From: Lachnospiraceae bacterium
GTDB lineage: Bacteria; Bacillota; Clostridia; Lachnospirales; Lachnospiraceae
Length of the DNA: 64,000 bases
Direction of reading: 5' to 3'
NCBI GenBank assembly: GCA_017503735.1
Contig: JAFVSN010000026.1
Coordinates: 21,416-85,415, forward strand
Both the position numbers and the translations under genes were made by a program. Positions 3,247 through 35,171 of this stretch are shown in pieces (within the stretch, counting starts at the first letter, position 1; each line of letters begins with the position of its first letter). The notes below the pieces were generated by a model. The model was not told where the DNA came from. It ran no database searches and saw only the letters and a program-made list of their open reading frames with translations.

Positions 3247-5102
3247 TATTCAGCCACCTCCTTATCTGCGGCAAAGAAGCTTCCTTCTAAGGAAGTCCGA
3301 TCCGTTGCCAGATAATTTACTGCCTGCTTTTCGTACATATCCGCATAGGCTCCGTGATTTGCCATCAGCTTCTTATGAGAGCCCTGCTCGATAATGGTGC
3401 CGTTCTCTAACATAAACACCCAGTCCGCATTCTGTACGGAGGACAAACGATGGGAAATAAACAACATCGTTTTATCCTGTCCATCTTTTAAAATGCTTTC
3501 GAATAGCTGATACTCCGCAATCGGGTCCAATGCCGATGACGGTTCATCAAAAATCTTTACCGGACGCTTCTGTACAAAAGCTCTCGCCACCACGATTTTC
3601 TGGTATTCACCGCCGGAGAGTACCGCACCATCCTCTGCAAACTCTTTCGTCAAAATGGTTTGAATCCCGTTAGGCAGACTCTCTACCTTCTCATAAACTC
3701 CCGCAAGCTTAAGTGCCCGAACTGCTTCCTCTTCGTCTCCTTCGGTTGCTTTTCGCATCAGTACATTTTCCAGTACCGACAAGGAGAAAATCTGATAATC
3801 CTGGAAAGCTCCCGCAAACAACGCACGATATTTCTGAAGCTCATACTCCTTGATATTTCTTCCGTTTAAGAAAATCTCACCGGAAGTCGGGTCATAGAAT
3901 CGCATCAACAGCTTAATAATGGTGGACTTTCCGGCACCGTTATGACCTACCAATGCATATGTTTTACCGCCTCGCAGTTCAAAGGATAAATCTTTGATGA
4001 CTTCTTCATCCTTATAAGAAAAGCAAACATTCTTAAACTCGATACTTTCAATGGTATCTCCCGGGTCATCTCCCGGATAATCCTCCGGAATCTTCTCTTC
4101 GTACTCCAAAAAGTTCCGCAAATTATCCACAAATAAACCGTTCTTAAAGCCCGCTGCCAAATAATCCGTAAAACCGATTAAAATCCATGTACAGGAAACC
4201 ATCATACTGGTAAGCACCGCCAGCTTTGCAAGGCTCATGCTGTCATTGACCAAAGTACGGTACGCACCGTAAATCAGCACCCCTTCAAAAATAAAGGAAA
4301 AGGTAAACTGGACATAAAACCAATGCAGTATCACTGCCTTTAAGGAATACTTCTTCGTTACATCCGCAACCCCTTTGATTGCCTCTCTGTAATCTCTCCG
4401 CATCAAGGAAAATACATTGGTAAGACGTACTTCTTTTGCGTACTCTGCCAGATACATCACTCGATTTACATAGGCCGTTCTGCGGTTATGCGGTGCCATA
4501 TCCTTATTCCGGTTAAAATCAATCTGACCCACCTTTCGGTTAAATACAAAATTTCCGATAATCGGGAAAACCACAAACAGCACCGATAATTTATCGATAT
4601 CATACATCAAATAGAATGCCAGAACAGCCGCAATACTTCCGAACAGCACGCCCCAGATATTCGATATGGTATCAATCAGCTTCTCTGCTGCTCCTTCCGT
4701 TGCCAGAGTATACTTATTATAAAACTCACTGTCCTCGAAACAGGACAACTCTACATTAGTGGACTTTTCAAACAAGCGCAGGTTCAACTTCTTATGGACC
4801 TTCGCACTGGCAATCGGCCATACCTTTCCTTCCAGATATTGGTTATATAGTGTCATGGACGCAAATACCGTCACCGTCACACCAAGGAAAATAAATATCG
4901 ACGTTACTTCCTGCTCGGTCTCCAGGGCATTGATTACATACCGCATAAAAAACGCACTGTAAAACAACCACTCAAAATAGCCCAGCACTCTTGCCACCGC
5001 CATATGTATTACCAGTTCCGGTGCAATCTTCCAGCCAAGTTTTAGTGCATACAGATTATTTTTCAGTACCCTGGTACGCTTCCTTTCCTTTTTCTTTTTC
5101 AT
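3246..5102 (-). CDS. ABC exporter half-transporter (permease-ATPase), first gene of pair 1
   Basis: A 618-residue protein with a basic N-terminus (MKKKKERKR), a hydrophobic membrane domain and a C-terminal ATPase. Motifs are GHNGAGKST (about residue 387), LSGGEYQK (about 494), KIFDEPSSALDP and FISHRLS, all catalytic positions intact. The start chosen is the ATG at 5100-5102, preceded by AGGAGA; an in-frame extension upstream has no ribosome site. The bases just before the start, ATGAGAGGAGAAGAGGA, are identical to those before the gene at 14813, which supports duplication of the whole pair. It is the first gene after the minus-strand promoter at 5237-5265. Confidence 0.9.
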   Translation of the reverse strand: MKKKKERKRTRVLKNNLYALKLGWKIAPELVIHMAVARVLGYFEWLFYSAFFMRYVINALETEQEVTSIFIFLGVTVTVFASMTLYNQYLEGKVWPIASAKVHKKLNLRLFEKSTNVELSCFEDSEFYNKYTLATEGAAEKLIDTISNIWGVLFGSIAAVLAFYLMYDIDKLSVLFVVFPIIGNFVFNRKVGQIDFNRNKDMAPHNRRTAYVNRVMYLAEYAKEVRLTNVFSLMRRDYREAIKGVADVTKKYSLKAVILHWFYVQFTFSFIFEGVLIYGAYRTLVNDSMSLAKLAVLTSMMVSCTWILIGFTDYLAAGFKNGLFVDNLRNFLEYEEKIPEDYPGDDPGDTIESIEFKNVCFSYKDEEVIKDLSFELRGGKTYALVGHNGAGKSTIIKLLMRFYDPTSGEIFLNGRNIKEYELQKYRALFAGAFQDYQIFSLSVLENVLMRKATEGDEEEAVRALKLAGVYEKVESLPNGIQTILTKEFAEDGAVLSGGEYQKIVVARAFVQKRPVKIFDEPSSALDPIAEYQLFESILKDGQDKTMLFISHRLSSVQNADWVFMLENGTIIEQGSHKKLMANHGAYADMYEKQAVNYLATDRTSLEGSFFAADKEVAE

Positions 5103-11158: not shown

Positions 11159-12991
11159 CTACGCATATCTGCTTGCCTGTGCTTCCCACATGGTTGCATA
11201 CACACCTCCGCGCTCCAACAGTTCTCCGTGACTTCCCTGCTCTATCACATGACCTTGTTCCATCACATAGATCATGTCTGCATCTCTTGTGGTAGATAAA
11301 CGATGTGAAATGGATAATACTGTCTTTTCTTTTGCCACTTCCTTCATTGCGCGGTTTAACTGATATTCCGCAATAGGGTCCAATGCAGCCGACGGCTCAT
11401 CCAAAAATACCAATCCGGCATTTTTATAAAATGCTCTTGCCACAGCCAGTTTCTGTGCTTCACCGCCCGATAAATCCGTCCCTTTATCCGAAAATTCTCT
11501 GGTGAGCTCCTGTTGTAATCCCATAGGGAAAGACGCAAGTTTTTCCGAAAATCCGCTCTTTGTCACTGCTTCCAAAACATCGTTTTCCGTTGCATTATCA
11601 CGCACCTTCTTTTGAATCTCATCCACATCTACTCTGTCCATAACCACATTCTCTGCCACTGTGGCCGCAAACAGCTTAAAATCCTGAAAAACCACGCCGA
11701 TATAGCGACGATATTCTTCTATATCGTAGTTACGGATATTCATACCGTTAAGTAAAATCTCTCCCTCTGTCGGATCATAAAGACGTAGTAATAACTTAAT
11801 TAACGTTGTCTTTCCCGCACCGTTATACCCTACCAATGCCACTTTTTCCTTTGCCCGGATGATTAGATTTACATCCCGCAAAATCAAGCAGTCCGGATTG
11901 TAACCAAAAGAGACATTACGGCACTCCAACACACCTGCCCCCTCCGGTATCTCACATGTTTTTTCATTCAAAATAGCACTTTCTCTATCCAGAAAAGCAC
12001 GAATCTTTTCCACATACAATCCGGTTTCCACCATATGAGGGCCCAAATCCACTACGGTTGATAATCCGCGGCGCAAATTAGATGCGGAATTGTACAAAAC
12101 AACCACTCCGCTTAAGGATACAGTCTTTGTCAAAACCGCCCGTACAATCAGATATAATACATACACAATATCCAACATAAAACCCGACATCAGATATCTT
12201 GCCGTAAATTCCAGCAAAAAGCTTTTCTTGCCCATGGTTTTATGTAACCGATACAACTCTTCATTCACCCGGTCAAACTCCTCCTGCATGCTTTTTGATG
12301 CTTCTTTATTTAACCGAAGTTCTTTCGCATACTGTTGTAAATAGAAAATACGCTTTACATACTCTCTTTTGCGTAACAACGGATTTTCTGTCTGCCGTAT
12401 GGTATAACGCCACTTATTCAGCATATTGGAAAAAATCGTCCGCAAAGCAAAAGCAACCAAAATAAACAGAATGGAAAATACATCCTGTGTCGCAAAAAAG
12501 GTACCGTAACAAAGAAGTACCGTAAGACATCCGAATATCATACGAAGCAACTGTTCCGCCCGGCTGATGGCATTGTCTGCCTCGGATACCGACAACATAA
12601 AATCATTATAATACTCTGTATCATCATAACAGGCCAAATCCACAGTCCCCGCTTTTTGATACAGCATTTCCTTCAACTTTTTCTGGGCAATCGGCAAATA
12701 TTTCAGTTTGATTTTCTGCTCGTACAGATTGCTGACCGCTGCCGCAAAGAAATCCAGAAGCAAAAACAATCCTACAACCCACAATACCTTCGTATAAGGT
12801 TTCTTTGTTTCGATTACATCCAAAATCAGGTAAACACAGATGGTCTGCTCCAGGAAATTTACGAGATTGTGACGTATCGCTTCCACCACGATACTGAAGG
12901 CATAAAAAGGAGTACCCTGAAACATCAATCGCAATAAAAAGAAGTTATTGGATAACATCCGTTTTGTACTCAACCCCTTCTTAGTTTTCAT
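11159..12991 (-). CDS. ABC exporter half-transporter, second gene of pair 2
   Basis: A protein of 610 residues if started at MKTKKG (12991), or 612 from the ATG two codons earlier. The GGGGAGG ribosome site spaces better to the later ATG. Membrane domain first, then an ATPase with GYNGAGKTT, LSGGEAQK, LVFLDEPSAALDP and SISHRLS. The gene overlaps the end of the preceding ABC gene by 11-17 bp, so the two are coupled. It aligns along its length with the gene at 1456-3246, for example the shared VVFQDFK and RFYK/RAFYK segments around the Q-loop and signature. Confidence 0.88.
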   Translation of the reverse strand: MKTKKGLSTKRMLSNNFFLLRLMFQGTPFYAFSIVVEAIRHNLVNFLEQTICVYLILDVIETKKPYTKVLWVVGLFLLLDFFAAAVSNLYEQKIKLKYLPIAQKKLKEMLYQKAGTVDLACYDDTEYYNDFMLSVSEADNAISRAEQLLRMIFGCLTVLLCYGTFFATQDVFSILFILVAFALRTIFSNMLNKWRYTIRQTENPLLRKREYVKRIFYLQQYAKELRLNKEASKSMQEEFDRVNEELYRLHKTMGKKSFLLEFTARYLMSGFMLDIVYVLYLIVRAVLTKTVSLSGVVVLYNSASNLRRGLSTVVDLGPHMVETGLYVEKIRAFLDRESAILNEKTCEIPEGAGVLECRNVSFGYNPDCLILRDVNLIIRAKEKVALVGYNGAGKTTLIKLLLRLYDPTEGEILLNGMNIRNYDIEEYRRYIGVVFQDFKLFAATVAENVVMDRVDVDEIQKKVRDNATENDVLEAVTKSGFSEKLASFPMGLQQELTREFSDKGTDLSGGEAQKLAVARAFYKNAGLVFLDEPSAALDPIAEYQLNRAMKEVAKEKTVLSISHRLSTTRDADMIYVMEQGHVIEQGSHGELLERGGVYATMWEAQASRYA

Positions 12992-23178: not shown

Positions 23179-23415
23179 CTACTCCTCAAATTCGACTGTT
23201 ACATAGAAGCCTTTGCTGTTTTCTTCTACGTCTTTTACTACTCCGGATAGTTTTGTCAGCCGTTCGCGGAACGGGATGTTTCCTGACATGGCCACTGCCG
23301 GTTCTATGACATAATAGAATATCGCATTCGGAAGGGTAGATTCACGGATTTCTACCTCTTGTCCCACTTCCACAAGACCGGGACGTTCCATTTTAAATTG
23401 CATGGTTCTTGACAT
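23179..23415 (-). CDS. Small conserved-looking protein, last gene of the restriction island
   Basis: A 78-residue protein without membrane segments or signal, beginning [18 protein letters not shown] and ending in an acidic tail. I do not recognise it. The start is well supported: AGGAGG 7 nt before the ATG, overlapping the hsdR stop, and the gene lies 11 bp after hsdR. That spacing indicates co-translation with the restriction subunit, but a separate chromosomal role is possible since it borders the island edge. Confidence 0.65.
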
Positions 23416-23426
23416 GATATTTCCTC

Positions 23427-26400
23427 CTATGCTACTGCATTTGTATTTATCTGTTCAATTACCTTTCGGATACCCGCCCAAAGATTCAGGTCTGTGAATA
23501 TCTCTACAACACTACCCTTGTCCGTAAACGGAGATTCCTGTAATACCGACAAGTCTTTCATAATACCGTTATGCACAATGTACTCCACTATCTGATTGAC
23601 AAAGTAGATTTGCCGACTGTCCATATTCGTTTCATTAAGAAACTCCGAAAAAGCTTCCTTTGCAGCATTCATATCTAACCCGACAATCTCACGAACAAAT
23701 TCACCCAACGGCTTAGAACCATACTCTGCCTCGTAGTCTGCTTTTGTACCAATCTCTTTCCACAAAATATCTTCCAATACCAAAATATCACTGGCTGTCA
23801 ACGGTTTGTTTGTCTTTAACTTTGCAATAACAATATTGTCTTGATGCTGACGTACATAATACTCTGCCTTTGCCTTATAATTTTTCAGTTCATCATTCTC
23901 TAAATCAGACTCATTCCAATCTACCGATAAAATTTCATCCGTAAAATTAGTAATATACTTCTGATGACCACTTGTCGGTAAATACTTCATCAGGTTACGA
24001 AGATTTTTCCGAATATACTCAAACTCTTCAATTCCTGCGTCCTCCACATAACTGGTATGAAGAATCTTATTAATCAATTCTGCCTGTACTTGAATTTCCG
24101 GAATATTGGCAACACTCGCGATACCACTGACCTTTCTATACAAGTCGCTCTTTGCCTTTCCGTACTTCTTTCCCGCAAGGTATGCCAGTTCAATACCATA
24201 CATAAGTGCATCAAAACGTACTGCACTTGTTTCATCACCATCCGGAAGAATCAACGGAGCCAGTTCATCTCGTACCATCAAAGTATCTTCATAAGTCAGT
24301 GTTTGATAATTATACGCTGTAGAATATGTATCCACATATTTTAAATGTTGACGCACGGCAAAATTATCTCTGTTAAGTTCCTGAACTTTTCCCGTCATAT
24401 CTCCAACTAACTTGTTTCTGTAGTCAATAAGCGGTTCTTCCTGATACTGCAAATCCTGTAGTTTATATGCCATCTGAAATTCCAGATTAAAGATTGCACC
24501 CTGTAATGCCATCATGTTTGCAGTTGGCTTTCCCTGACCCATTCGAAAGAATTCAAAGTTCCCACAAAAATCAAAAATGTAAAACTTCTGCTTATCTTCA
24601 CCATCTATAAGTCCCGGACACAAACGAGTTCCTCGTCCGATCATCTGCCAGAACTTTGCCTTACTCATGACCTTCTTGAAGAACACCAGATTTAATACCT
24701 CCGGCACATCAATCCCCGTATCAAGCATATCTACCGATATCGCAATCTGCGGGAACTTCTTTGAATCCGAAAATTCGTCAATTGCGCTTTGCGCGTAAGT
24801 CATATAGTTATCAATAACCTTTGCAAATGCCTGTCCGTTTTTATCTAAATGGGAGTATTCCTTATTAAATACTTCCAAAATTTTCTCTGCATGGTCATGA
24901 TTCTTTGCAAAGATAATAGACTTGCCAAGCATCTCACCATACTGTATCTTTAATCCGTCCTCCATCAACGTATGTAATACCTGCTTAATGGTATCTTCGT
25001 TAAAAATCCATGTATTCAATGCAGAGGAGCTGATTCTTTCCGGCAACACGCCATCTTCGGTTTCAAAAGTATCTTCATACAGTTCTTTGTCTTCTTCCGA
25101 TAAGTCATCATACACGATACCCTGCTCAATGAATTTAAGTTTTGTCTCTACCGACATAAAATCAACAAGGTATCCGTCTTTTACCGCCTGTGCCAGTTCG
25201 TATCCATAGGTTGGGACCCCATTTTCCAGTTCAAAAATGCTATAAGTATTTTTATCAATCTCATCCTTCGGTGTGGCAGTTAAACCAACCAACGGTGCAT
25301 CAAAATAATTGAAAATATCTCTGTATTTGTTATAGATGGAGCGATGGGCTTCGTCGCAAATAACCAAATCAAAGTGGCCACAGGTAAACAACTTTTTCTC
25401 TTCCTGGTCTTTGACAGAGTCTATGCAATTCATCATCGTCTGATAAGTAGAAAAAATACAATGTGCATTATAATTATCCTTCTCTTCCACCAAATTAGAG
25501 CATGACAAATCGGGCAAAAGATTTACAAAACTTCTTTTTGCCTGTGTGACAAGAGAATTTCTATCTGCCAAGAACAAAATGTTTTTTACCCATCCTGCAT
25601 TTAGAAGTACCTTACATAATGCAATCACCGTTCTTGTCTTTCCCGAACCGGTAGCCATAACGAGCAATGCTTTTCTGCGATTCTTTTTATCAAAACTGTC
25701 ACACACCGCCTTTATGGCACCTTCCTGATAATAACGTCCGGCTATATCTTTATCTACGGAAACATGGGCAAGGCTTGTCCGCATTGCTTGCAAATTAAAT
25801 AACTTTTCTAAGTCTCTTTTAGAATAAATAACCGCGCATTTTCTTTCCGGATACTGATTATCTATAATCCTTGTTTCAAAACCGTTCGTCAGGAAAACCA
25901 CCGGTCTTCGATGATGCTGTTTCTCAAGTAAATCAGCATACAGCTTTGCTTGCTGTCTTCCCTTTGCCACATCCACACAGGTACGCTTTGCTTCAATCAC
26001 CGCCAGCGGTCTGTGGGCATCATCATAGAGTACATAATCCGCCCGCCCCATTTCTGACTTATTCGGCATTCCCTGAATTTCAACTTCATTTATCCAATCC
26101 TTGCCTTCCGTCCATCCGGCATCCAAAAGCATAGAATCAATATAAATCTTTCTAGTCTTATACTCTGACAAATCCAAAGGTTTCGGCACATAGGTCTGAT
26201 GCTGTTCTTCACGTCTTGCAGTCAATTCTTCTTTTAATGCTTTATTTTCAGCAAGTAATGCTTTCAAATCCACATCAGCATCAGACGTTTTCTTTACTTC
26301 CGTCGGCTTCTGTGGCTTTTCCAAAAGAGTATCGTCATACTTCCGCTCTTCATAAGAATCCGCATAACAATACGCGACAAAATCAAAAAAGATAAAAAGA

Positions 26401-26738
26401 TTCTGCAAGCAAAGCTTTGCTTCATCCATGGTCACTTTCTTTCCATTATGTGCCGCTCTGTTCCCAACTTTACGAATTAAATCCAAACGCTTCCATAAAA
26501 CATCATCTACTAAATCATGAAAATCCTCGGTACTCATCAAACTAATCAAGGTATCCTGATACGGCATTTCCAGAGACTTGTCCACGGAATACATCCACTT
26601 GATCGCAAATTCCATGGCACGCCGACAGTTGATCACACTGGATTCCAAATCAATGTTCAATATCTTTTCTGCCGCAATCGCAACATCGGCAAAACTATTA
26701 AATTTTGACTCTTGCTTTAGATAATCAAAGTTGGTCAT
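23427..26738 (-). CDS. hsdR: Type I restriction enzyme, restriction/translocase subunit
   Basis: A 1103-residue R subunit. The N-terminus resembles DUF4145 (residues 10-120). A PD-ExK nuclease site follows near residues 240-255 (RADYVLYD...AVIEAK). The helicase core has Walker [11 protein letters not shown] (about 363), DEAH box VICDEAHRS (about 464), LVGLTATPK and motif [13 protein letters not shown]-terminal EcoEI-type domain closes it. It cuts unmodified DNA far from the recognition site after ATP-driven translocation. Start ATG at 26738 is preferred over an in-frame TTG seven codons upstream, which lacks a ribosome site. Confidence 0.95.
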
Positions 26739-26768
26739 ATAGGATTCACTCCTTGTCAAAATGATTCT

Positions 26769-27788
26769 TTATTTTTGCGTAACCGCTTTCACCATCTTAT
26801 CAAAATCAGATTCTATCGGTTGTGTTTTATTAAAAGTTTCATATTCTGCATAAGCCTTGTCTAATGCCTGTTTATGAGAGACTCTGCCATTATCCTTTAA
26901 TACATCATATCTTCTAAACTCTAAAAAAGCATTAATACTATCGGAGAATTCCTGCATGGTAAATACATTTTCACGCTCTATTAAATCCTCTATATAATCA
27001 AAATATCCAGTCACCGTACGTTCTAACTGCCGAATTTGTTTCTCATCCAAATAATTCTTTGCCACCGGTGTATCAGACTTCAATATACGCCCATCGGGAG
27101 CATTTTTCCATGTAGTCAAGCCCATATGTTCCTTCGTGTGATCCGCAGAATCATAAACAATTTCTGCCGCAGTTTTACCCGTTATCGCATAATGAAATTT
27201 ATTTTGCACTGTGGAAAAGAATTGATATGTAACCTCCGAATCCTTTTCATAATCAATACTGCACTCCGCAAATATATCCGTAATCTGTTGCCAGATTCGC
27301 CTCTCACTTGCACGGATAGAACGCACTCGCTCCAGTAATTCACGAAAATAGTCTTTTCCGAAAGTTGTTTTCGCAAGCCTCAATCGCTCATCATCCATGA
27401 CAAATCCTTTTATCATGTATTCCTTTAATACATTGGTTGCCCAAATACGAAAGTGTGTCGCTTGTATGGAATTTACTCTGTAACCCACGGAAATAATGGC
27501 ATCCAAATTATAGTAATTTGTAACAGACGTTTGTGTCTTACCTTGAATTGCACCATGTGGAGTGGGTATTTCCATTTTGGAAACAACCACTTCTTCAACC
27601 AATTCTCCCTGTTCAAAAATGTTTTTTAGATGCTTACTAATTGCCGGTTTTTGTACTCCAAACAGCTCAGCCATTGCTTTTTGTGTAATCCAAATAGACT
27701 CATCTTTTATCAATGCACTAACAGTTACAGAATCATCCTCTGTACGATACAATACCATTTCCATTTGTTTTGTAATATCTGTACTCAT
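26769..27788 (-). CDS. RhuM-family protein within the restriction island
   Basis: A 339-residue protein of the virulence RhuM family. Residues 25-75 look like a DNA-binding KilA/Bro-type or winged-helix segment (ITQKAMAELFGVQKPAISKHLKNIFEQGEL), and SVTNYYNLDAIISVGYRVNS is the family hallmark. Biochemical activity of RhuM is not established. The gene lies 30 bp before hsdR and 18 bp after the HAD gene, so it is in the operon. RhuM genes are often found in restriction islands, but whether it regulates or is a defence effector is unknown. Confidence 0.82.
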   Translation of the reverse strand: MSTDITKQMEMVLYRTEDDSVTVSALIKDESIWITQKAMAELFGVQKPAISKHLKNIFEQGELVEEVVVSKMEIPTPHGAIQGKTQTSVTNYYNLDAIISVGYRVNSIQATHFRIWATNVLKEYMIKGFVMDDERLRLAKTTFGKDYFRELLERVRSIRASERRIWQQITDIFAECSIDYEKDSEVTYQFFSTVQNKFHYAITGKTAAEIVYDSADHTKEHMGLTTWKNAPDGRILKSDTPVAKNYLDEKQIRQLERTVTGYFDYIEDLIERENVFTMQEFSDSINAFLEFRRYDVLKDNGRVSHKQALDKAYAEYETFNKTQPIESDFDKMVKAVTQK

Positions 27789-27806
27789 ATAACTCCCCTT
27801 TAAAAT

Positions 27807-28982
27807 TTATTCAAAATGATTCTTTACCTGTAATGCCTTTTCTGTTTCCTTGTCTAACATCCCGATAATCTTTTGATAAAATGCTTTTACATCAATATCA
27901 TTAAGTAAATACCGCACGGGATGATTATTCAGCGCTATATCAAGTAACATATCAATTTCACTTTGAGACCAATCCTCAATTAATAATAATTCACGCATAA
28001 TCGTATGTGTAGTAGCAAAGTTCCTACTTCCATCTAAAGAAAAAATCAAATTCATGCGCATCTGCGTATTGTTATCATTTTCTTCACACGCCTTAGCATC
28101 TGCATGCTCTTTCTTACAAGAAAAATATTTTTCTTCAAGCACTTCATTTGCCGCAGTTCTAACAATAATTGCTCTTACCAATTTATCCAACTCAGAATTT
28201 TCGGTATAATCTGCCGGTGCAAAATACTTAATACGATTATCCCCTAACATTTTAAACACCTTGGATTTATCTAACGTATCATTACTATATACCCCTATGG
28301 AATGTCCTCCGTACGCATTAACTAATTTCATACACGGAATGTCAGTAGCACTGTCCCCGATATACACAATATTTCTGAACGGAACACGAATGTCCTCCGG
28401 TGCAAAATAATCATTTACACGAGAATCATTTACATCCAAAACTCCTTTTTCAATCCGGAACAAAAACTGTGTTTTATTAGTATAGTTTATTACTTGTGCA
28501 GGCCAAATCCCTACACCTCTTTCATTAAATAAAAATGAGCTTGCGTAAATTCTTTCAAATGCACCTGCCTTTGCAATTGACGTTCCTTCTATCATTTCTT
28601 TAAGACCTGAAGAAATAATATAATGCTCCACAATTACATTATTTTCTATACCAAACTTCCGAATTTTTTCAAACCATTCTTCTACGCCGGGAAACAGTTT
28701 TACTTTTGAACCGTATTCAGCTAATGTTTCTCTGGTAAATAAAATTCGACCTTGAGCCTCATCTACCATCTTATACATATATGCCAGATTAGTATCCATC
28801 TCATTTGCTTCAGCAAAATCATTAGATTCTTTCCAAAATGTCTGTACATCCCCTTTAAAAACCTTCTGAATATAACCTTGTGCCTGCATATCATCAGGAG
28901 ATAGGGTCTTATCAAAATCATAACAAATTGCCAAGACTGGCCTATCTTCTTTATATTTTCTTTCATACTCTTTATCAGCCAT
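27807..28982 (-). CDS. HAD-superfamily hydrolase within the restriction island
   Basis: A 391-residue protein. HAD motif I is CYDFDKTLS, with Asp22 as the nucleophile and Asp24 as the acid/base. Motif II is YIISSG and motif IV is VYIGDSATDIPCM. The N-terminal 270 residues form a phosphoserine-phosphatase-like HAD domain. The last 120 residues are an unrecognised Glu/Lys-rich helical extension. All catalytic residues seem present, so it is likely an active phosphatase; the substrate is unknown. It sits between the second hsdS and rhuM, 18 bp from each, an uncommon place for a HAD enzyme. Confidence 0.8.
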   Translation of the reverse strand: MADKEYERKYKEDRPVLAICYDFDKTLSPDDMQAQGYIQKVFKGDVQTFWKESNDFAEANEMDTNLAYMYKMVDEAQGRILFTRETLAEYGSKVKLFPGVEEWFEKIRKFGIENNVIVEHYIISSGLKEMIEGTSIAKAGAFERIYASSFLFNERGVGIWPAQVINYTNKTQFLFRIEKGVLDVNDSRVNDYFAPEDIRVPFRNIVYIGDSATDIPCMKLVNAYGGHSIGVYSNDTLDKSKVFKMLGDNRIKYFAPADYTENSELDKLVRAIIVRTAANEVLEEKYFSCKKEHADAKACEENDNNTQMRMNLIFSLDGSRNFATTHTIMRELLLIEDWSQSEIDMLLDIALNNHPVRYLLNDIDVKAFYQKIIGMLDKETEKALQVKNHFE

Positions 28983-29000
28983 ACGGTTTCTCCCTTCATC

Positions 29001-30110
29001 TCAAAATACAAACAAAAGCATCCTCGTCCCTTTTGTTACTCTCTGTGCATCAAATTTCAATTTGTCGACTAGAGTTACAAAGTCAGCAAACTGATTTTGC
29101 GCATCTATAGATGGTACCATTACATCCAGCTTCTTTGCCATAGCTATAGAAAGATATGCCACCGTAGAACCCGCCTGTAATGCATCAATCTGTTTTCTAA
29201 AACCTGGCATTTCAAATAAATACGAAATATATAAAGGTGTCACTCTACTATCATAATGGGATAGCCATGTAATCATTCCGTCTTGAAAATAGAATTCATC
29301 ATCTTCCTTTACTATATAACACCGCCCCAATGTTCCCCTTGCTGTAAGTAAAATATCTCCGCTTTGCGGAACTAATCCTTGTTCTTTCAGTTCCTCATAC
29401 CGTGTCTCTGGAATAAACAAATCACACTCTAACGAACCATTGTCCATTCTATTTACTAAATCAGATATTCTGAGGAACGGTATGCCTGTCAGACTCTGCT
29501 CGCTTTGATATATGCGCTTGCTAGAACCAACATCACAGAGAGCTTCCAGTTTACATATTTCCCATTTTTGTTCATTAATATCTGGATTGCCAAAGAGTTC
29601 TACAAATCGGGATTTGATAAGATTGTCAAGTTCTTCGATTTCTTTTCGCCTTTTATCAATTATATTTTGAACAGAATCCAAGATGCCCACAATAAAAATC
29701 TGTTCGTCCTTTGATGGTACTCCAAAACTATATTTCTTTATATCTGGAACAGTCAACTGCGGAATTGATGTTCCGCTTGATTTTGGCTTGCAACTTTTTA
29801 ATGCATAATGCATATACCTCAAATCAACCAACTCTTGCTTTGGTACAACTGTAATCAATCGAACTACTGGCACAAATGGCTCTGTTCTAATCGCAGTATA
29901 TCCAATAGTTCCTCTTGCAGCCACCGTTACACTTGGCTCATATTCCCTTGCTTCGTCTGTATATCCATATAATCCTTCGTCTCTTTCCGCATTTGCATAA
30001 ATTGGTACTGTAAACTCTTCTGTTTTCACTTCTGAAAATCTATCCTTTGGCACATCTCCTCCAGCATAGATTCTTTTACACAATTTTTCTATACAGATAC
30101 TCTCTTGCAT
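29001..30110 (-). CDS. hsdS: Type I restriction specificity subunit, second copy
   Basis: About 369 residues with two target-recognition domains and the central helical spacer KEIEELDNLIKSRFVELFG (about residues 170-190), which also appears in the other hsdS. Both domains look intact. The C-terminus ends TKGTRMLLFVF and differs from the other copy after the shared DKLK stretch, so the second spacer helix may be shortened or altered. The chosen ATG (30110) is 9 nt after the GGAG inside the shared 26-bp repeat. It is separated from hsdM by another hsdS and a recombinase; it may be a stored or alternative specificity. Confidence 0.85.
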   Translation of the reverse strand: MQESICIEKLCKRIYAGGDVPKDRFSEVKTEEFTVPIYANAERDEGLYGYTDEAREYEPSVTVAARGTIGYTAIRTEPFVPVVRLITVVPKQELVDLRYMHYALKSCKPKSSGTSIPQLTVPDIKKYSFGVPSKDEQIFIVGILDSVQNIIDKRRKEIEELDNLIKSRFVELFGNPDINEQKWEICKLEALCDVGSSKRIYQSEQSLTGIPFLRISDLVNRMDNGSLECDLFIPETRYEELKEQGLVPQSGDILLTARGTLGRCYIVKEDDEFYFQDGMITWLSHYDSRVTPLYISYLFEMPGFRKQIDALQAGSTVAYLSIAMAKKLDVMVPSIDAQNQFADFVTLVDKLKFDAQRVTKGTRMLLFVF

Positions 30111-30114
30111 CCTA

Positions 30115-30140
30115 ATCATCTCCACAAATCTGAATTTGCG
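30115..30140. repeat. 26-bp direct repeat, copy 2 (before second hsdS)
   Basis: Identical over 26 bp to 32356-32381. It begins directly after the recombinase stop codon and contains the GTGGAG ribosome site of the second hsdS. Confidence 0.85.
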
Positions 30141-30141
30141 G

Positions 30142-31113
30142 TTATCCGATGAATTTTCTATGAGAATTCTTTACATTGCTCTGATTCACCATTGCATAAT
30201 GCATCGTAGTATCAATCTGCTGATGCCCTAACAGGCGTTGTACTTGCTCTATCGGCATTCCTTTGTCTATTGCTTTGGTTGCCATAGAACGCCTGAATTT
30301 ATGCGGATGTACTTTTTCAATATCGAGTCTTCGCCCAAGATTTCTCAATCGTATCTCTACTCCACTTATCTGTAATCGTTCACTTGGCTTGTCCAATGTC
30401 ACGAACAATGCTTCGTTTCTATCTGTTCTACTTTTCAAATACTCCTGTAAATGAATTTTAGCCCTTGCATCAAAGTACACGCGCCGTTCCTTATTTCCTT
30501 TACCATACACGACACATTCTCGTTCTTCAAAGTTAATGTCTGCCTTGTTGAGATTCACCAATTCTCCCACTCGTATTCCAGCTGAATACAACAAATCAAT
30601 AATTGCCAAGTCCCTAATGTTTTTACAGTTATCACGCAAAACTTCAATGTTTTCATCTGAAAAAGTTTCCTTCACCCGCGTGCCGGTTCTCACCTTATGA
30701 ATTCGTCGTATCGGACTTTTCAATATATGATCTTCATCTTCTAACCACGAAAAGAAACTTGATAGATTCCGACGAATATTGTCAATTGTTACTCGACCAC
30801 AATTATTCTTTACCTGATACTGCGTTAAATACTCTCGTAAATCCTCTGTTGTAATCTGTCTTACCGGTGCCTTTATATCAAAAAACATATTTTGGATCGT
30901 ACTTCGATAATACTCTATGGTACGTTCAGAGCACCCCTCAATCCTTTTGGCAGCAACAAACATATCAAGGTACTCTTTATTATCAATCTCTCTTGTAATA
31001 TCCAGCTCTGACCTCTGCAAATATTTCAGCAGACATTCCTGTAATCTTCGCATCTGCTGGACATCAAGGCATTCCGACATATCATTCAGTATTTTACAAA
31101 TCGCATTCTCCAT
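30142..31113 (-). CDS. Tyrosine recombinase located between two hsdS genes
   Basis: A 323-residue XerC/D-like recombinase. A core-binding SAM-like domain covers residues 40-130. The catalytic domain has Arg181 (SAGIRVGEL), His271 and Arg274 (HPHKFRR), His297 (LLGHQQ) and nucleophile Tyr306 (MHYAM): the full R-H-R-H-Y set. Enzymes in this position usually shuffle hsdS target domains. Its ribosome site lies between the arms of a 13-bp inverted repeat (31112-31151), whose right arm also covers the first base of the start codon. The 26-bp repeat starts right after its stop. It lies 66 bp after the first hsdS. Confidence 0.92.
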   Translation of the reverse strand: MENAICKILNDMSECLDVQQMRRLQECLLKYLQRSELDITREIDNKEYLDMFVAAKRIEGCSERTIEYYRSTIQNMFFDIKAPVRQITTEDLREYLTQYQVKNNCGRVTIDNIRRNLSSFFSWLEDEDHILKSPIRRIHKVRTGTRVKETFSDENIEVLRDNCKNIRDLAIIDLLYSAGIRVGELVNLNKADINFEERECVVYGKGNKERRVYFDARAKIHLQEYLKSRTDRNEALFVTLDKPSERLQISGVEIRLRNLGRRLDIEKVHPHKFRRSMATKAIDKGMPIEQVQRLLGHQQIDTTMHYAMVNQSNVKNSHRKFIG

Positions 31114-31151
31114 TTTGGTATACTCCTTTTTTTCACCCAGTATACCAAAAT
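31112..31151. promoter_or_regulatory. 13-bp inverted repeat bracketing the recombinase ribosome site
   Basis: Perfect arms ATTTTGGTATACT (31112-31124) and complement (31139-31151) with a 14-nt spacer. Read on the minus strand the AAAGGAG ribosome site falls in the loop and the right arm ends at the start codon. It could be an RNA hairpin limiting translation, an operator, or a recombinase site. Confidence 0.7.
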
Positions 31152-31179
31152 CACTTTTTTCTGCAAGAACACATTCAAC

Positions 31180-32352
31180 TTATCCGAAATGCTTCTGCAT
31201 AAGTGAATCCATAAGCTGCTGTGTTTCATCTAAGGATTTCTGCACTTCAACTTTCAATTTGTCGACTTGTTTAACAAACTCAACAAACTGTTTCTGAATG
31301 TCCATAGGTGGAACAAGAATCTCAAGTTTTCTAATATCACCCAATGAAATAAATTTTTGTGTCCCGCCTCTTACCTTACTCAAAACAGCATCATCGAAGT
31401 AATCCGACTGAAGCAAGGCACGAATATAAATATTCAACACACTTGAATCAGCTCTGAACTTAATTAGAGCCACATTCTTAATAGCAAAATCGGGTTCTAT
31501 ATCAACGATTACAGGCTTTCCAACTGTTCCTATCATAGGCATTATGATATCGCCACTATCGACCTTTGACCTTTCGTTGATTTTATTGAAGTCTGCTTCA
31601 CAAATGAGAGAACAACCTGTCAGGTCGATTTTTCCACCTGTTACGTTTTTTGATGTAACTAGCGGATACCCTGTTTCATAATACTTCGGTGAGTCGTGTG
31701 TTCCATCTCTAACATCGCAAACTGACCCGAGACTATCTTTTTCCCACCCAAAAGGATTCAGAACCGTATCCCCAAACAGCTCGACAAATCGGGATTTGAT
31801 GAGGTTATCCAACTCTTCTAACTGTTGCCTTCTTTTCTTGAGAATTTCTTCTGTACGAGAAAGGATATTTACTACTTTTCTTTGTTCTTGAACTCCAATA
31901 TCTGGTATCTCAAATTTTAAAAATTTTGCTTGATTAAGATGTGCTATTGTACATCCGACCTTAATCTGCTCAATGAAGCGGATAAAACTACCACTTCTTA
32001 ATGCATACACTAAATATGTTGGTAATAAAGCTTCTTCATTGCGTGGTCGTACAACAAATACCCCACTATTAAGCGTTGCTGGCTTATCAAATTTATCTAC
32101 AATTGCAACTTTACCTATCGTCCCATCTTTTGTTACAAGGACATCATTCTCCTGTAATTGAATATGACTATCTTGATCGTATCTATCCTTTGTTACATAA
32201 TGACAATTCTGAAAATCTATCACACCATCAAGAAAATCCACACCTGTAACCAAATAATAATCACCCGAATCAAGATATTCTGCTTTTGTTAACCCTTGCC
32301 ACCCTATTCTCGCATGTAAGGTACAAGCATCTTCTATTTTTTGCATCCTCAT
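31180..32352 (-). CDS. hsdS: Type I restriction specificity subunit, copy next to hsdM
   Basis: About 390 residues from ATG 32352; a 21-residue in-frame extension (to 32415) has only a weak ribosome site. The first target-recognition domain opens TLHARIGWQGLTKAEYLDSGDYYLVTG, very typical of HsdS. The central helix is QLEELDNLIKSRFVELFGD, followed by a second recognition domain and a helical end DETQQLMDSLMQKHFG. It selects the split DNA sequence methylated or cut by HsdM/HsdR. Being 100 bp after hsdM, it is probably the expressed copy. It shares three short direct repeats with the second hsdS. Confidence 0.92.
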   Translation of the reverse strand: MRMQKIEDACTLHARIGWQGLTKAEYLDSGDYYLVTGVDFLDGVIDFQNCHYVTKDRYDQDSHIQLQENDVLVTKDGTIGKVAIVDKFDKPATLNSGVFVVRPRNEEALLPTYLVYALRSGSFIRFIEQIKVGCTIAHLNQAKFLKFEIPDIGVQEQRKVVNILSRTEEILKKRRQQLEELDNLIKSRFVELFGDTVLNPFGWEKDSLGSVCDVRDGTHDSPKYYETGYPLVTSKNVTGGKIDLTGCSLICEADFNKINERSKVDSGDIIMPMIGTVGKPVIVDIEPDFAIKNVALIKFRADSSVLNIYIRALLQSDYFDDAVLSKVRGGTQKFISLGDIRKLEILVPPMDIQKQFVEFVKQVDKLKVEVQKSLDETQQLMDSLMQKHFG

Positions 32353-32355
32353 CTC

Positions 32356-32381
32356 ATCATCTCCACAAATCTGAATTTGCG
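32356..32381. repeat. 26-bp direct repeat, copy 1 (before first hsdS)
   Basis: Identical to 30115-30140 and in the same orientation. It carries GTGGAG, which spaces 8 nt to the hsdS ATG at 32352. Confidence 0.85.
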
Positions 32382-32452
32382 CGAGTAATTTGCTATACCG
32401 TTCGGTTGTCGGCATAACTCAACTCACTATCTCTACTCTATCAACTTCACCA

Positions 32453-33955
32453 CTATAATTCCAACAGAGCCTTCAACTCTGCCATTTCCATTGCAATCTC
32501 TGCCTCTATCTTCTCGATATTCGCAAATATTTCACTTGTCGGCGGATATTCCACTGCCTTGTACTCTACCTGCTTATACTTATTGATGGATAAATCATAT
32601 TCATTACCCACAATCTCATCCTTCGGTACAAAGAAAGACTTATCGGTTCTCTTTCTGCCAGCCTCCCCCTCTAAGTTATGGAATCTGGAAATAATATCAC
32701 TAATATCATTCTCTGCTACCGGAGTTCTCTTATCATCCAGACTGAGTCCGTCAGCGGTCATATCATAGAACCACACCTTGTCTGTTCCGCCATGCCCCGT
32801 CTTGGTAAAAATCAGAATACCGGTAGACACTCCCGCATATGGCTTAAACACACCGGATGGCATAGAAATGACCGCTTCCAGTCTATTTTCCTCTACCAAC
32901 TCTTTACGAATTGCCTTGTGGGCTGTAGAAGAACCGAACAATACGCCGTCCGGAACGATACACGCACATCGTCCTCCCACCTTAAGCATCCGTACAAACG
33001 CCGCCAAAAACAGCAACTCTGTCTTCTTAGTCTTACATACCTTTAATAAATCCGCAGATACAGTATCCGCATCCAAACTGCCCTTAAACGGCGGATTTGC
33101 CAAAATTAAAGAATACTTTTCCCGATCCTGATTCTGGTCCGACAGGCTATCCCGGTATTCAATAAACGGACTTTCCACACCATGCGTCATCATATTCATT
33201 GCACCGATACGAAGCATAGTTCTATCCATATCAAATCCATGGAACATATGATTCATATAGTGGTCTTTTTTTTGCCGTTCAAAAAAGATTTCTTCTTTGT
33301 GATGCTCTTTTAAATATTCCCCTGCCGTCACAAGGAACCCGGACGTGCCGCATGCCGGGTCACAGATGATATCATCCGGTTTTGGTTGCATCAGTTCCAC
33401 CATCATACGAATGATATGACGCGGTGTTCTAAACTGTCCGTTTCGTCCGGACTGTGCTATCTTGGAGAGCAGATACTCGTAAACATCCCCTCGGATATCC
33501 ACATCCTTCACCTCTGCCATCAAACGATAAATATCATCCAATGCGTCTACTACTTTAGAAAGTAATAACGGAGTCGGCAATTTAAAAATAGCATCGTCCA
33601 TATATTTGGAATACGCACTGTTCTTGTCTCCGTGAAGATTCTTGATAAACGGGAATACCCATTCCTGCATCACGGAATACATCCGTGCCGCCGGAAAATC
33701 ATGAAATACAGACCATTTCAACTGGGAACCGTCAATAGTTCTGTCACCAATCTGCACCTCATTCGCAAACATACTCTTATACGGTAATCCGAGCATGGCA
33801 CTCTCTTTTGCCCTCAAATTATCCGTATCATCCAAATCATGGATAAACATCAAATATGTTACCTGCTCTATTACATCCAGTGGATTTACCAATCCACCGG
33901 CTGCAAACACATCCCACATACTATCTATTTTATTTTTCAATTCTCCGGTAATCAT
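32453..33955 (-). CDS. hsdM: Type I restriction enzyme, N6-adenine methyltransferase subunit
   Basis: A 500-residue M subunit. The SAM-binding motif is DPACGTSGFLV (about residue 200) and the catalytic motif is NPPF (about 288, LILANPPFKGS), specific for N6-adenine methylation. The N-terminal helical domain ends in EYLLSKIAQSGRNGQFRTPRHI, typical of HsdM. Its ATG overlaps the fic stop by 4 bp (ATGA), so Fic and HsdM are translationally coupled. It forms the methylase with two HsdM and one HsdS. Confidence 0.96.
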   Translation of the reverse strand: MITGELKNKIDSMWDVFAAGGLVNPLDVIEQVTYLMFIHDLDDTDNLRAKESAMLGLPYKSMFANEVQIGDRTIDGSQLKWSVFHDFPAARMYSVMQEWVFPFIKNLHGDKNSAYSKYMDDAIFKLPTPLLLSKVVDALDDIYRLMAEVKDVDIRGDVYEYLLSKIAQSGRNGQFRTPRHIIRMMVELMQPKPDDIICDPACGTSGFLVTAGEYLKEHHKEEIFFERQKKDHYMNHMFHGFDMDRTMLRIGAMNMMTHGVESPFIEYRDSLSDQNQDREKYSLILANPPFKGSLDADTVSADLLKVCKTKKTELLFLAAFVRMLKVGGRCACIVPDGVLFGSSTAHKAIRKELVEENRLEAVISMPSGVFKPYAGVSTGILIFTKTGHGGTDKVWFYDMTADGLSLDDKRTPVAENDISDIISRFHNLEGEAGRKRTDKSFFVPKDEIVGNEYDLSINKYKQVEYKAVEYPPTSEIFANIEKIEAEIAMEMAELKALLEL

Positions 33956-35016
33956 AACAAATCATTCTCCCTGTTCCATGTGTATTTTGTAAAACGTCCA
34001 CCACTAATCTTTAGTATTTCTCCGGCAGAGAGCAACTCATTTAAAGTCTTCTGTATCGTTGCCTGACTGATATCCGGGCATTTTGCCATAAGTTCCGCCT
34101 TGGTCACTGTTCCTAACGTATTCTTTATCACTTCTCGAACCCGCTCCGGCTTTGACAGGCCACTCGTTGTAATCAGCTTTACACGTGCCGAAAACTCTCG
34201 GTAGGTACTTACAATAATACCAAGCATATATCTCACAAAAGGCTCATAGTCATTCTGTTCCTCATGCCACCCATAGGAACTTTCTTGTAACACTTCGTAA
34301 TACGTGGTCTTTGACTTCTCTATTGCTTTTTCGATACTGATATATTTCCCTACAATATACCCCGCACGATATAAAAGCAATAAAGTTAACAAACGACTCA
34401 TACGACCATTTCCGTCATTGAATGGGTGAATGCATAGAAAGTCAAGTACAAACATAGGAATTATCAACAACGGGTCTACCGTTCCATCTGCCAATACTTC
34501 CTCAAAAGCTTTGCATAATGCATTGATTGCTTCCGATGTTTCCCATGCCGGTACCGGTTGAAAACGTACCTTCTTATTTCCCCGACTATCGATTTCTGCA
34601 ATGACATTATCCGAACTCTTATACAACCCTCCAATATTCACACCTATAAATTTATATAAGTCCCTATGAAGTTGTAAAATAAAGGTCGGTCGCGGAGGTA
34701 TATGGTCGTGAGATTCATGAATCGTATTTAAAACATCTCTATACCCCGCTATTTCCTTCTCATTTCTTGTTTTAGGCATTGTTTTATCTTTTAACAACAT
34801 CTTCAATCTCTCATCTGAAGTATAGATACCCTCAATCTTATTGGATGCCTCAGTACTTTGTATTTTAGCTATTTCCATAAGCTGTTCAAGCGTGTCGGCT
34901 TTCGCCTCAATAAACAGTGTTTGTTCACCTTTATACTCATGAATACACGTAAGAAGTGATACAATATCAGGTGTAAGAAGCTTTTGCCATGTTTTTGTAT
35001 AATCAATCGTTCTCAT
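33952..35016 (-). CDS. Fic-domain protein, class II, first gene of the restriction island
   Basis: A 354-residue Fic protein. The catalytic motif HPFNDGNGRMSR starts at His197 and is canonical for AMP transfer. A built-in inhibitory helix, SNKIEG (residues 58-63, pattern S-x-x-x-E-G), lies N-terminal, placing it in class II: the enzyme holds itself inactive. The C-terminal 80 residues look like a winged helix (TVTKAELMAKCPDISQATIQKTL). It is first in the operon after the promoter at 35065-35094 and overlaps hsdM by 4 bp. The winged helix makes it a candidate for binding the nearby inverted repeat. The target protein of AMPylation is unknown. Confidence 0.93.
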   Translation of the reverse strand: MRTIDYTKTWQKLLTPDIVSLLTCIHEYKGEQTLFIEAKADTLEQLMEIAKIQSTEASNKIEGIYTSDERLKMLLKDKTMPKTRNEKEIAGYRDVLNTIHESHDHIPPRPTFILQLHRDLYKFIGVNIGGLYKSSDNVIAEIDSRGNKKVRFQPVPAWETSEAINALCKAFEEVLADGTVDPLLIIPMFVLDFLCIHPFNDGNGRMSRLLTLLLLYRAGYIVGKYISIEKAIEKSKTTYYEVLQESSYGWHEEQNDYEPFVRYMLGIIVSTYREFSARVKLITTSGLSKPERVREVIKNTLGTVTKAELMAKCPDISQATIQKTLNELLSAGEILKISGGRFTKYTWNRENDLL

Positions 35017-35064
35017 ATTATTTGCTCCGTTTCCTATCTAAAAACACTACACTACTACAATTAA

Positions 35065-35094
35065 ATTATATCTCTTCAATTACATAAAAGTCAA
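35065..35094 (-). promoter_or_regulatory. Promoter of the fic-hsd operon
   Basis: Minus strand TTGACT (35094-35089), 18 bp, TATAAT (35070-35065). The -35 lies inside the left arm of the 22-bp inverted repeat, so occupancy of that repeat would block RNA polymerase. Confidence 0.7.
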
Positions 35095-35155
35095 GTTCAA
35101 TTTACTATTTTTCTTCAAAATTAGTAAATTGAACTTGACTTTTAGTAAATTAAAC
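35086..35155. promoter_or_regulatory. 22-bp inverted repeat plus third half-site: operator and/or recO terminator
   Basis: Arms 35086-35107 and 35122-35143 are perfect complements with a 14-nt spacer. A third copy of the half-site TTAGTAAATT(G/A)AAC occurs at 35142-35155, in the same orientation as that at 35121-35134. It overlaps the -35 of the fic promoter. It also lies about 30 bp after the recO stop and is followed on the minus strand by TTTT, so it may double as the recO terminator. Confidence 0.7.
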
Positions 35156-35171
35156 TCTATTCAAAACAGCC

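Follow-up and report, generated by a model that had tools for sequence, protein, structure and literature searches.

The window, a stretch of 64,000 nucleotides from contig JAFVSN010000026.1 of a Lachnospiraceae bacterium (assembly GCA_017503735.1), contains a type I restriction-modification island in which a tyrosine recombinase gene lies between two hsdS genes on the same strand. The hsdS1-recombinase-hsdS2 segment is probably a specificity shuffler that operates by excision and reintegration. It would be housed in a horizontally acquired island that carries HAD and RhuM genes as cargo and lies at a hotspot of gene turnover, with recO on one side and a small host gene on the other; we put the probability of this explanation, taken jointly, at about 0.73. 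An earlier note on this DNA described a composite restriction island without mentioning the repeated sequences at the two hsdS genes, which tell us more about the locus than any other feature.

Putative recombination sites in the hsdS cluster and its relatives

The nine genes of the series in the window, and the sites in its hsdS genes, are on the minus strand. The hsdS1 gene (31180..32415, with a possible start at ATG 32352) encodes a full-length specificity subunit with a conserved C-terminal tail. After a gap of 66 bp it is followed by the recombinase gene (30142..31113), whose XerA/XerC-like product is full-length and has a Phage_integrase domain in domain searches, and after a further 16 bp by hsdS2 (29001..30125, possible start ATG 30110), a downstream specificity cassette that has no C-terminal tail and is predicted to be a silent store. 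The two hsdS genes share three kinds of direct repeat, exact over 26 bp (start), 17 bp (mid) and 16 bp (end), all in the same orientation and all built on the core AAAT-N4-ATTT, that is CAAATNNNNATTTG. The start sites (32353..32381 and 30112..30140) are 29-bp repeats, 97% identical to each other, with cores at 32366-32379 (CAAATTCAGATTTG) and 30125-30138. Since both repeats hold GGAG followed by the ATG of the hsdS gene, an exchange at this site would keep translation. The mid sites (31785..31798 and 29603..29616) both read CAAATCCCGATTTG, and the first lies between the two target-recognition domains (TRDs) of hsdS1. The end sites are CAAATTGAAAGTTG at 31248..31261, with one mismatch to the motif, and CAAATTGAAATTTG at 29051..29064, shortly beyond which hsdS2 diverges from hsdS1.

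The core motif is rare. The 3.08-Mb genome holds 13 copies, five of them inside the hsdS cluster (two start, two mid and one end), and a reversed-pattern control has two copies in the whole genome. Among the other genomic cores, considered as spare integration sites, the one for which open reading frames (ORFs) were listed, L089, was rejected because it falls inside an unrelated ORF. Two or more types of direct repeat that share a core and one orientation, and a recombinase between same-strand hsdS copies, characterize loci like tvr, the pneumococcal excision-reintegration system compared below, and both are present. Inverted repeats of at least 16 bp, which mark an inverting system, number zero in the cluster; the longest imperfect ones measure 28 nt (75% identity), 26 nt (77%) and 21 nt (86%).

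In the proposed mechanism the working enzyme would consist of HsdM, HsdS1 and HsdR, and the recombinase would use three kinds of same-orientation site: start, ahead of the gene and with the ribosome-binding site; mid, between the TRDs; and end, before the tail. A crossover between equivalent sites would release a circle bearing hsdS1 and the recombinase gene, and TRDs would be exchanged when the circle reinserts into the cassette left behind, at its mid or its end site. With a1-a2 denoting the TRDs of hsdS1 and b1-b2 those of hsdS2, start-by-start excision followed by mid reinsertion would place b1-a2 upstream and a1-b2 downstream, and end reinsertion would place b1-b2 upstream and a1-a2 downstream. 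Start reinsertion would restore the original, and further rounds could produce the fourth allele; two N-terminal and two C-terminal TRDs would allow up to four specificities. Because the circle takes the tail and the recombinase gene with it, the hsdM-adjacent gene would stay full-length and the tail-less downstream copy would act as a silent store.

Start repeats were compared in eight hsdS-recombinase-hsdS loci, the window included and L138 and L194-L199 excluded. In seven of them a same-orientation repeat before both hsdS genes outscores every control window. Crossover by a tyrosine recombinase needs matching centres within a site pair, and seven of the eight loci have the same four central bases at both start sites, with several values across loci (TCAG, TCGG, TGAT, TGAG, TTAG). 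By hand count 12 of 40320 pairings would reach seven centre matches, a figure that is a guide only, the loci being related.

The tail is distributed asymmetrically. In 28 chosen loci, and with a tail pattern written after the C-termini had been viewed, the tail was found in 17 of 18 hsdS rows upstream of the recombinase and in none of 18 downstream (Fisher p 4e-9); the single upstream row without it is a half gene in L194. Fifteen of the 18 downstream rows keep the end-site motif, of the VDK(S/L)K type, followed by sequence that does not match the tail pattern, although some residues of it may still be similar to the tail (for example in L142 and L198). Among hsdS genes in loci with no recombinase in view, six of nine have the tail; of the three that do not, L126 and L137 are at contig ends. 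This asymmetry is the pattern that excision, with tail and recombinase on the circle, and subsequent reinsertion at the mid or end site would leave.

Other footprints are visible in individual relatives. L197, whose recombinase belongs to the same group, contains a 577-bp exact duplicate that extends from the mid core to five bases past the end core, with chance similarity outside. In L142 the identity between the two sides starts at the start core and runs for about 175 bp. The TRDs are modular: in a comparison of 120 hsdS ORFs, 45 of them with the mid motif, 32 of 35 TRD pairs that are at least 45% identical have partner TRDs that are less than 45% identical or undetected. The remaining three are two rows of L180/L199 and a pair of L018 that lies within one gene. 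The N-terminal TRD of the window hsdS2 is 69.6% identical to the N-terminal TRD of hsdS1 in L141, a gene in the other position.

Recombinase relationships and proposed control of expression

The tree comprised the 46 recombinases of at least 300 amino acids from the fetched loci, and those of L133, L142 and L144 are therefore outside it. Twelve of these sit with two or more hsdS genes all on the same strand, 19 with at least one opposite-strand hsdS, four with a single hsdS, and for 11 no hsdS was found. All 12 same-strand rows, which span four families, fall into one group of 17 that also contains three of the single-hsdS rows, two rows with none, and no inverted rows. Another clade holds 18 of the 19 inverted rows, and L181 stands alone. 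The related inverting loci repeat a similar core, AAAY-N4-ATTT. Sister recombinases in L169-L179, L181-L183, L185, L200 and L202-L204 have hsdS pieces on both strands, with cores that are mostly TAAAC or TAAAT, N4, and ATTTA. L167 and L168, from two genera, carry near-identical recombinases that belong to the direct-repeat group; no hsdS was detected close to either (the L167 contig is only 4.2 kb). Counted irrespective of hsdS linkage, recombinase matches at E 1e-70 occur in 39 of the 397 family genomes and in 15 of the 341 class genomes, the present genome being included in both; a second match in this genome (C28) was set aside as a shortened ORF.

A hairpin at 31112..31151, with a perfect stem of 13 bp, covers both the start codon of the recombinase gene and its ribosome-binding site (z -3.6). 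With starts chosen by script, a start-codon stem equalled by at most 5% of control positions was found in 16 of 35 hsdS-linked recombinases versus 2 of 11 others, and the arm sequences differ among many loci. The recombinase is probably kept rare by this hairpin.

The operon is headed by fic (33952..35016), which overlaps hsdM by 4 bp. Its product bears HPFNDGNGRMSR and, at residue 58, the class-II-type inhibitory motif SNKIEG, and all nine Fic rows checked have both. We take HxFx(D/E)GNGRxxR together with an N-terminal (S/T)xxxE(G/N) to be the marks of class II Fic adenylyltransferases, and the window Fic carries this combination. The self-inhibited Fic coupled to hsdM that had been proposed earlier thus agrees with the overlap and the inhibitory motif. 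The protein matches the PADLOC SoFic model (E 4.1e-39) and scores 58.2 bits against the NCBIfam model ProtAdlyltaseSoFic, whose cut-off is 550, placing it outside the curated SoFic family. Its closest solved relative by sequence is 8uqu_A, a Fido protein (E 5.8e-80), far ahead of the SoFic entries. Fic-fold proteins include Doc. The C-terminus of the window Fic resembles winged-helix domains, with Pfam matches below cut-offs.

An operator-like inverted repeat (35085..35144, two 23-bp perfect arms at 35144-35122 and 35107-35085) covers the -35 element of a predicted sigma-70 promoter for fic (35065..35094, TTGACT-18-TATAAT, 11 of 12 consensus matches). Such matches are no commoner in the region than in shuffled sequence, and the fic promoter is a consensus match only. 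The palindrome has a folding z of -8.4 as single-stranded DNA. Upstream inverted repeats of at least 10 bp accompany 11 of 13 Fic genes, of which only five have one longer than every control window. The operon is probably repressed through this palindrome, and Fic itself is most likely the repressor because its C-terminus resembles winged-helix domains. A 72-bp segment that is 94% identical to the fic operator region lies beside the small host gene in the sister genome L243 (6729-6800), where no fic was seen.

A more far-reaching explanation, for which the odds seem to us evenly balanced, would combine these features. In it a recombinase group dedicated to hsdS, spread over four families of one class, would swap specificities through three-site direct repeats, with tail-less silent cassettes, a throttle formed by the hairpin and the Fic-linked operator, and an operon that doubles as a dock for defence cargo. 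All TRDs, including the one proximal to hsdM, would then be exchangeable because the start site carries the ribosome-binding site.

Island boundaries, cargo and alternative explanations

The ORF listing gives nine same-strand ORFs between 35016 and 23179, separated by 9-66 bp apart from the single overlap at fic/hsdM, as the close spacing reported before would have it. Searches of Pfam, PADLOC and NCBIfam confirm the Fic, HsdM, HsdS, tyrosine recombinase, HAD, RhuM and HsdR families, so the series of families described in the earlier note is real and on one strand, except that it counted hsdS once where domain searches find two. The type I core stood as well: hsdM (32453..33955, methyltransferase), hsdS and hsdR (23427..26759, a restriction subunit with an EcoEI-type C-terminus and either a TTG start or an ATG seven codons in) have their family domains in one operon, which makes this a type I restriction-modification system, and the additional genes are defence-like. 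The last ORF (23179..23415) encodes a 78-aa protein with no family match in Pfam, PADLOC or NCBIfam. It had been counted as part of the series, from which it must be removed as a host core gene outside the island: all 10 genomes examined from the genus, the present one included, have it, and it adjoins recO in sister genomes that have no island.

The island occupies 23429..35169, inserted between recO and this small gene. In the sister genomes L241 and L242 the counterparts of window positions 23428 and 35170 are directly adjacent. Across nine sister genomes the recO slot is empty in five (L241, L242, L246, L247, L249). In L243 (6027-6708) and L245 (6444-7128) it holds a pair that we read from its sequence as a nucleotidyltransferase and a HEPN-like protein (HEPN/MNT), of which L244 (6655-6831) has a remnant; in L240 a 5'-truncated fic (3188-3832) is the sole trace of such an island. 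This variation identifies the slot as a turnover hotspot and the small gene as host. The G+C content of the island is 0.35-0.42 in 1-kb bins, versus 0.44-0.48 in the bins directly flanking it; elsewhere in the window it is 0.40-0.51, within a whole-window range of 0.35-0.51.

The association of the island genes was examined from the HsdR side in 397 genomes of the family, of which 40, the present one included, match at E 1e-100. Twenty HsdR regions were fetched, 18 at 69% identity or more and two below 50% (L143, L144), with the high-identity partial matches G169, G284 and G294 left out. Seven of the 18 have no hsdM in view (L126, L127, L128, L132, L137, L138, L139), and the comparison covers the other 11 (L125, L129, L130, L131, L133, L134, L135, L136, L140, L141 and L142, the last with a broken hsdR, 86% identical over 713 aa). 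Fic is present in eight of the 11, the recombinase in seven (truncated or broken in L133 and L142) and a second hsdS beyond the recombinase in six. HAD occurs in one (L133, a distant relative at 87 bits, between hsdS and the recombinase) and RhuM in none. Fic and the recombinase are recurrent partners of this restriction family, and HAD and RhuM vary independently.

The HAD phosphatase gene (27807..28982) and rhuM (26769..27788) lie between hsdS2 and hsdR. Their products match PADLOC candidate models over nearly their full lengths, PDC-S34 for HAD (residues 4-385, E 1.6e-185) and PDC-S05 for RhuM (residues 7-338, E 2.1e-157). They belong to candidate families already in PADLOC and may have a role in defence. 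The HAD hydrolase assignment made earlier is confirmed by the Pfam and PADLOC matches and by residues D22, D24, T26, S124, K170, D210 and D214, invariant in 59 homologues, whose roles we presume from general knowledge of HAD motifs. No solved structure for the HAD family was found by sequence at E up to 0.01. Of 464 HAD relatives 80 were kept, and 15 of these have, within 6 kb and on their own strand, at least two of hsdM, hsdS and hsdR; Fic is near four, RhuM near one and a window-type recombinase near none. Only 40 of the 80 loci extend 6 kb on both sides, and hsd genes are near in eight of those 40. L182 also carries a HAD relative (11317-12450, 490 bits) in this slot ahead of hsdR; the hsdS genes of that locus lie on both strands and its hsdM is distant. 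AbiH is adjacent to HAD in L006, and in the distant loci L046 and L055 a Fic gene is its direct upstream neighbour, L055 being a 3.7-kb contig without detected hsd genes.

RhuM is found in 125 of the 397 family genomes at E 1e-30, as against 40 for HsdR at E 1e-100, and this genome carries a second RhuM gene, 46% identical, on contig C41 (L164, G000). Among 18 RhuM regions from other genomes searched with phmmer, L161 has a same-strand hsdS-like gene directly beside rhuM and L156 has one at a distance of one ORF; in L158 and L161 an hsdM-like gene adjoins rhuM. Of 26 RhuM neighbours 22 were scanned, four short ones being omitted; three match type I methyltransferase models and two type I specificity models. 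RhuM thus occasionally accompanies other type I systems. On viral contigs RhuM was found at 18 loci, which were used for one alignment, HAD at two and the recombinase at four. Among the loci fetched, the window is the only one with HAD and RhuM together in one hsd operon.

Elsewhere the slot holds other genes. Ten ORFs from eight relatives were scanned, further listed cargo ORFs being left aside. Matches include AbiH (L131), SieB (L129), a TIR/SpbK-like protein (L143), a nucleoside-phosphorylase-like protein (L135) and HEAT repeats (L130). L129 has a STAND-like ATPase between hsdM and hsdS, with matches below Pfam cut-offs, and the L137 cargo is a YjbR/alkyltransferase-like protein that is not evidently a defence protein. 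The scanned ORFs of L128 and L134, and that between hsdS1 and the recombinase in L131, matched no family. In L125, L140, L141 and L142 the last hsdS is within 120 bp of hsdR. Because the slot holds unrelated genes or none in other loci, and because HAD and RhuM vary independently, the two are best regarded as interchangeable cargo.

These distributions bear on the earlier suggestion of an extra control or abortive layer, made up of Fic, HAD and RhuM and tied to this restriction enzyme, a single composite system that had not been described. The tight same-strand spacing and the 4-bp fic-hsdM overlap are in its favour, as are the recurrence of Fic in the relatives with hsdM in view and its position upstream of HAD in L046 and L055. 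We nevertheless consider it improbable. HAD and RhuM, with one and no occurrences in 11 relatives, show the independent variation that the note had named as evidence against it; across the 80 HAD loci hsd genes are near in 15 and RhuM in one; and elsewhere the slot holds unrelated genes or is empty. The parts are separable by co-occurrence and by empty sites, the small gene belongs to the host, and the idea survives only for Fic, at eight of 11. It would be equally improbable that protein coding and ribosome-binding sequence alone preserve the repeats while homologous recombination makes the TRD mosaics. The mid and end sites do encode KSRFVE and VDKLK, the start repeat does hold GGAG, and part of the mid and end conservation may be coding constraint because these sites sit in conserved protein motifs. 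Against this, the start repeats precede the hsdS coding sequence in most relatives, as judged from ORF starts (some overlap the end of hsdM), in most cases the centres agree within a locus and differ from those of other loci, and the 577-bp duplicate is bounded at cores. Slightly less improbable, though still unlikely, is that programmed shuffling is absent, with hsdS2 a duplicate in decay and the recombinase simply a passenger. The missing hsdS2 tail would fit, as would recombinases that are broken (L133, L142, L144) or absent in some relatives; loss of the tail from 18 of 18 downstream copies versus one of 18 upstream, the exact cassette copy between cores in L197, the modular TRDs, the full-length window recombinase with its Phage_integrase domain and the matching centres within seven of eight loci would not. 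Very unlikely is an ordinary inverting hsdS system of the ivr/SpnIII type caught in one state. Sister recombinases, 59-64% identical, do sit with inverted hsdS pieces, but the cluster has no inverted repeat of at least 16 bp, for which inversion was rejected as the mechanism, and all 12 multi-hsdS same-strand rows group apart from the inverted ones.

Several observations weigh against excision-reintegration shuffling itself. The start-repeat score of L141 (11) is below its control maximum (12), although the same near-repeat is present, and the start-site centres of L131 are unlike each other. Several downstream rows of the tail comparison are half genes, and three of the 18 (one each from L138, L144 and L194) lack the end motif. 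The mid and end sites coincide with conserved protein motifs, as noted, and centres differ between non-equivalent sites, which may limit exchanges. No alternative arrangement was seen in the single strain available, whose genome has the complete locus once and in a single configuration. The group of direct-repeat recombinases has modest support (83/93), so that its fork is not firm. Nineteen of the 35 hsdS-linked recombinases fail the hairpin test. Eight of 13 Fic genes have no palindrome that exceeds all controls, two of these having none of 9 bp, and the link between Fic and the operator is purely positional.

Comparison with known systems

If the three-site model is correct, restriction target, methylome and phage resistance would change through excision and reinsertion of a circle that carries its own recombinase gene; the anatomy predicts that only the upstream hsdS is active and that up to four motifs are methylated. 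Surveys based on inverted repeats would miss such systems if the more far-reaching explanation holds. A REBASE survey of this kind sought inverted repeats and, in the text available, does not mention direct repeats (PMC7394358). The gap between hsdS and hsdR is a slot of gene turnover, which explains the composite look of the island without a new joint mechanism.

Within the literature covered, which excluded preprints and most subscription journals and was seen in part, there is one demonstrated case of hsdS excision-reintegration, tvr of the SpnIV type I system in Streptococcus pneumoniae (PMC6265443), and one proposed direct-repeat locus, in Mycoplasma faucium. From the available parts of the tvr report, the window resembles tvr in its order of hsdM, hsdS, recombinase, further hsdS pieces and hsdR, and in its direct repeats, which have one orientation, a common core, and mid and tail-end positions. 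In tvr loci with two plus two TRDs the upstream hsdS alone is active, and recombinase expression is restrained by an attenuator and by Phd-Doc homologues (PMC6265443). The window differs in having a third site before each hsdS; the hsdM-proximal domain, which does not move in tvr, could therefore move here, and the tvr authors remarked that their locus lacks a repeat next to hsdM (PMC6265443). It also has no Phd-Doc pair between the hsdS genes, Fic instead heading the operon, and its cargo sits before hsdR. Because the Phd-Doc pair is missing, we treat the locus as tvr-like and not as a member of tvr.

The M. faucium locus has same-strand truncated hsdS copies with 28-bp direct repeats that are proposed to recombine; it differs in that two 5'-truncated pseudogenes lie in tandem downstream, the proposal is drawn from sequence, and the accessible text mentions no recombinase (PMC11062135). 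The hsd cluster of Mycoplasma agalactiae holds a putative recombinase whose role, according to the part of the report available, is unknown (PMC9465063). SpnD39III/ivr shares the duplicated hsdS, the locus-encoded recombinase and the repeats before and between TRDs (PMC7394358, in part), whereas the repeats of the window are direct and its hsdS genes are on the same strand. Defence genes between hsdS and hsdR have already been described, and DarTG2 occupies this slot in the RRDM island (PMC12255303, in the text available), where the window has HAD and RhuM. The matches to PDC-S34, PDC-S05 and SoFic are matches to models that do not themselves establish the function of these candidates. In its proposed shuffling logic the locus agrees with tvr, to which it adds a start site beside hsdM.

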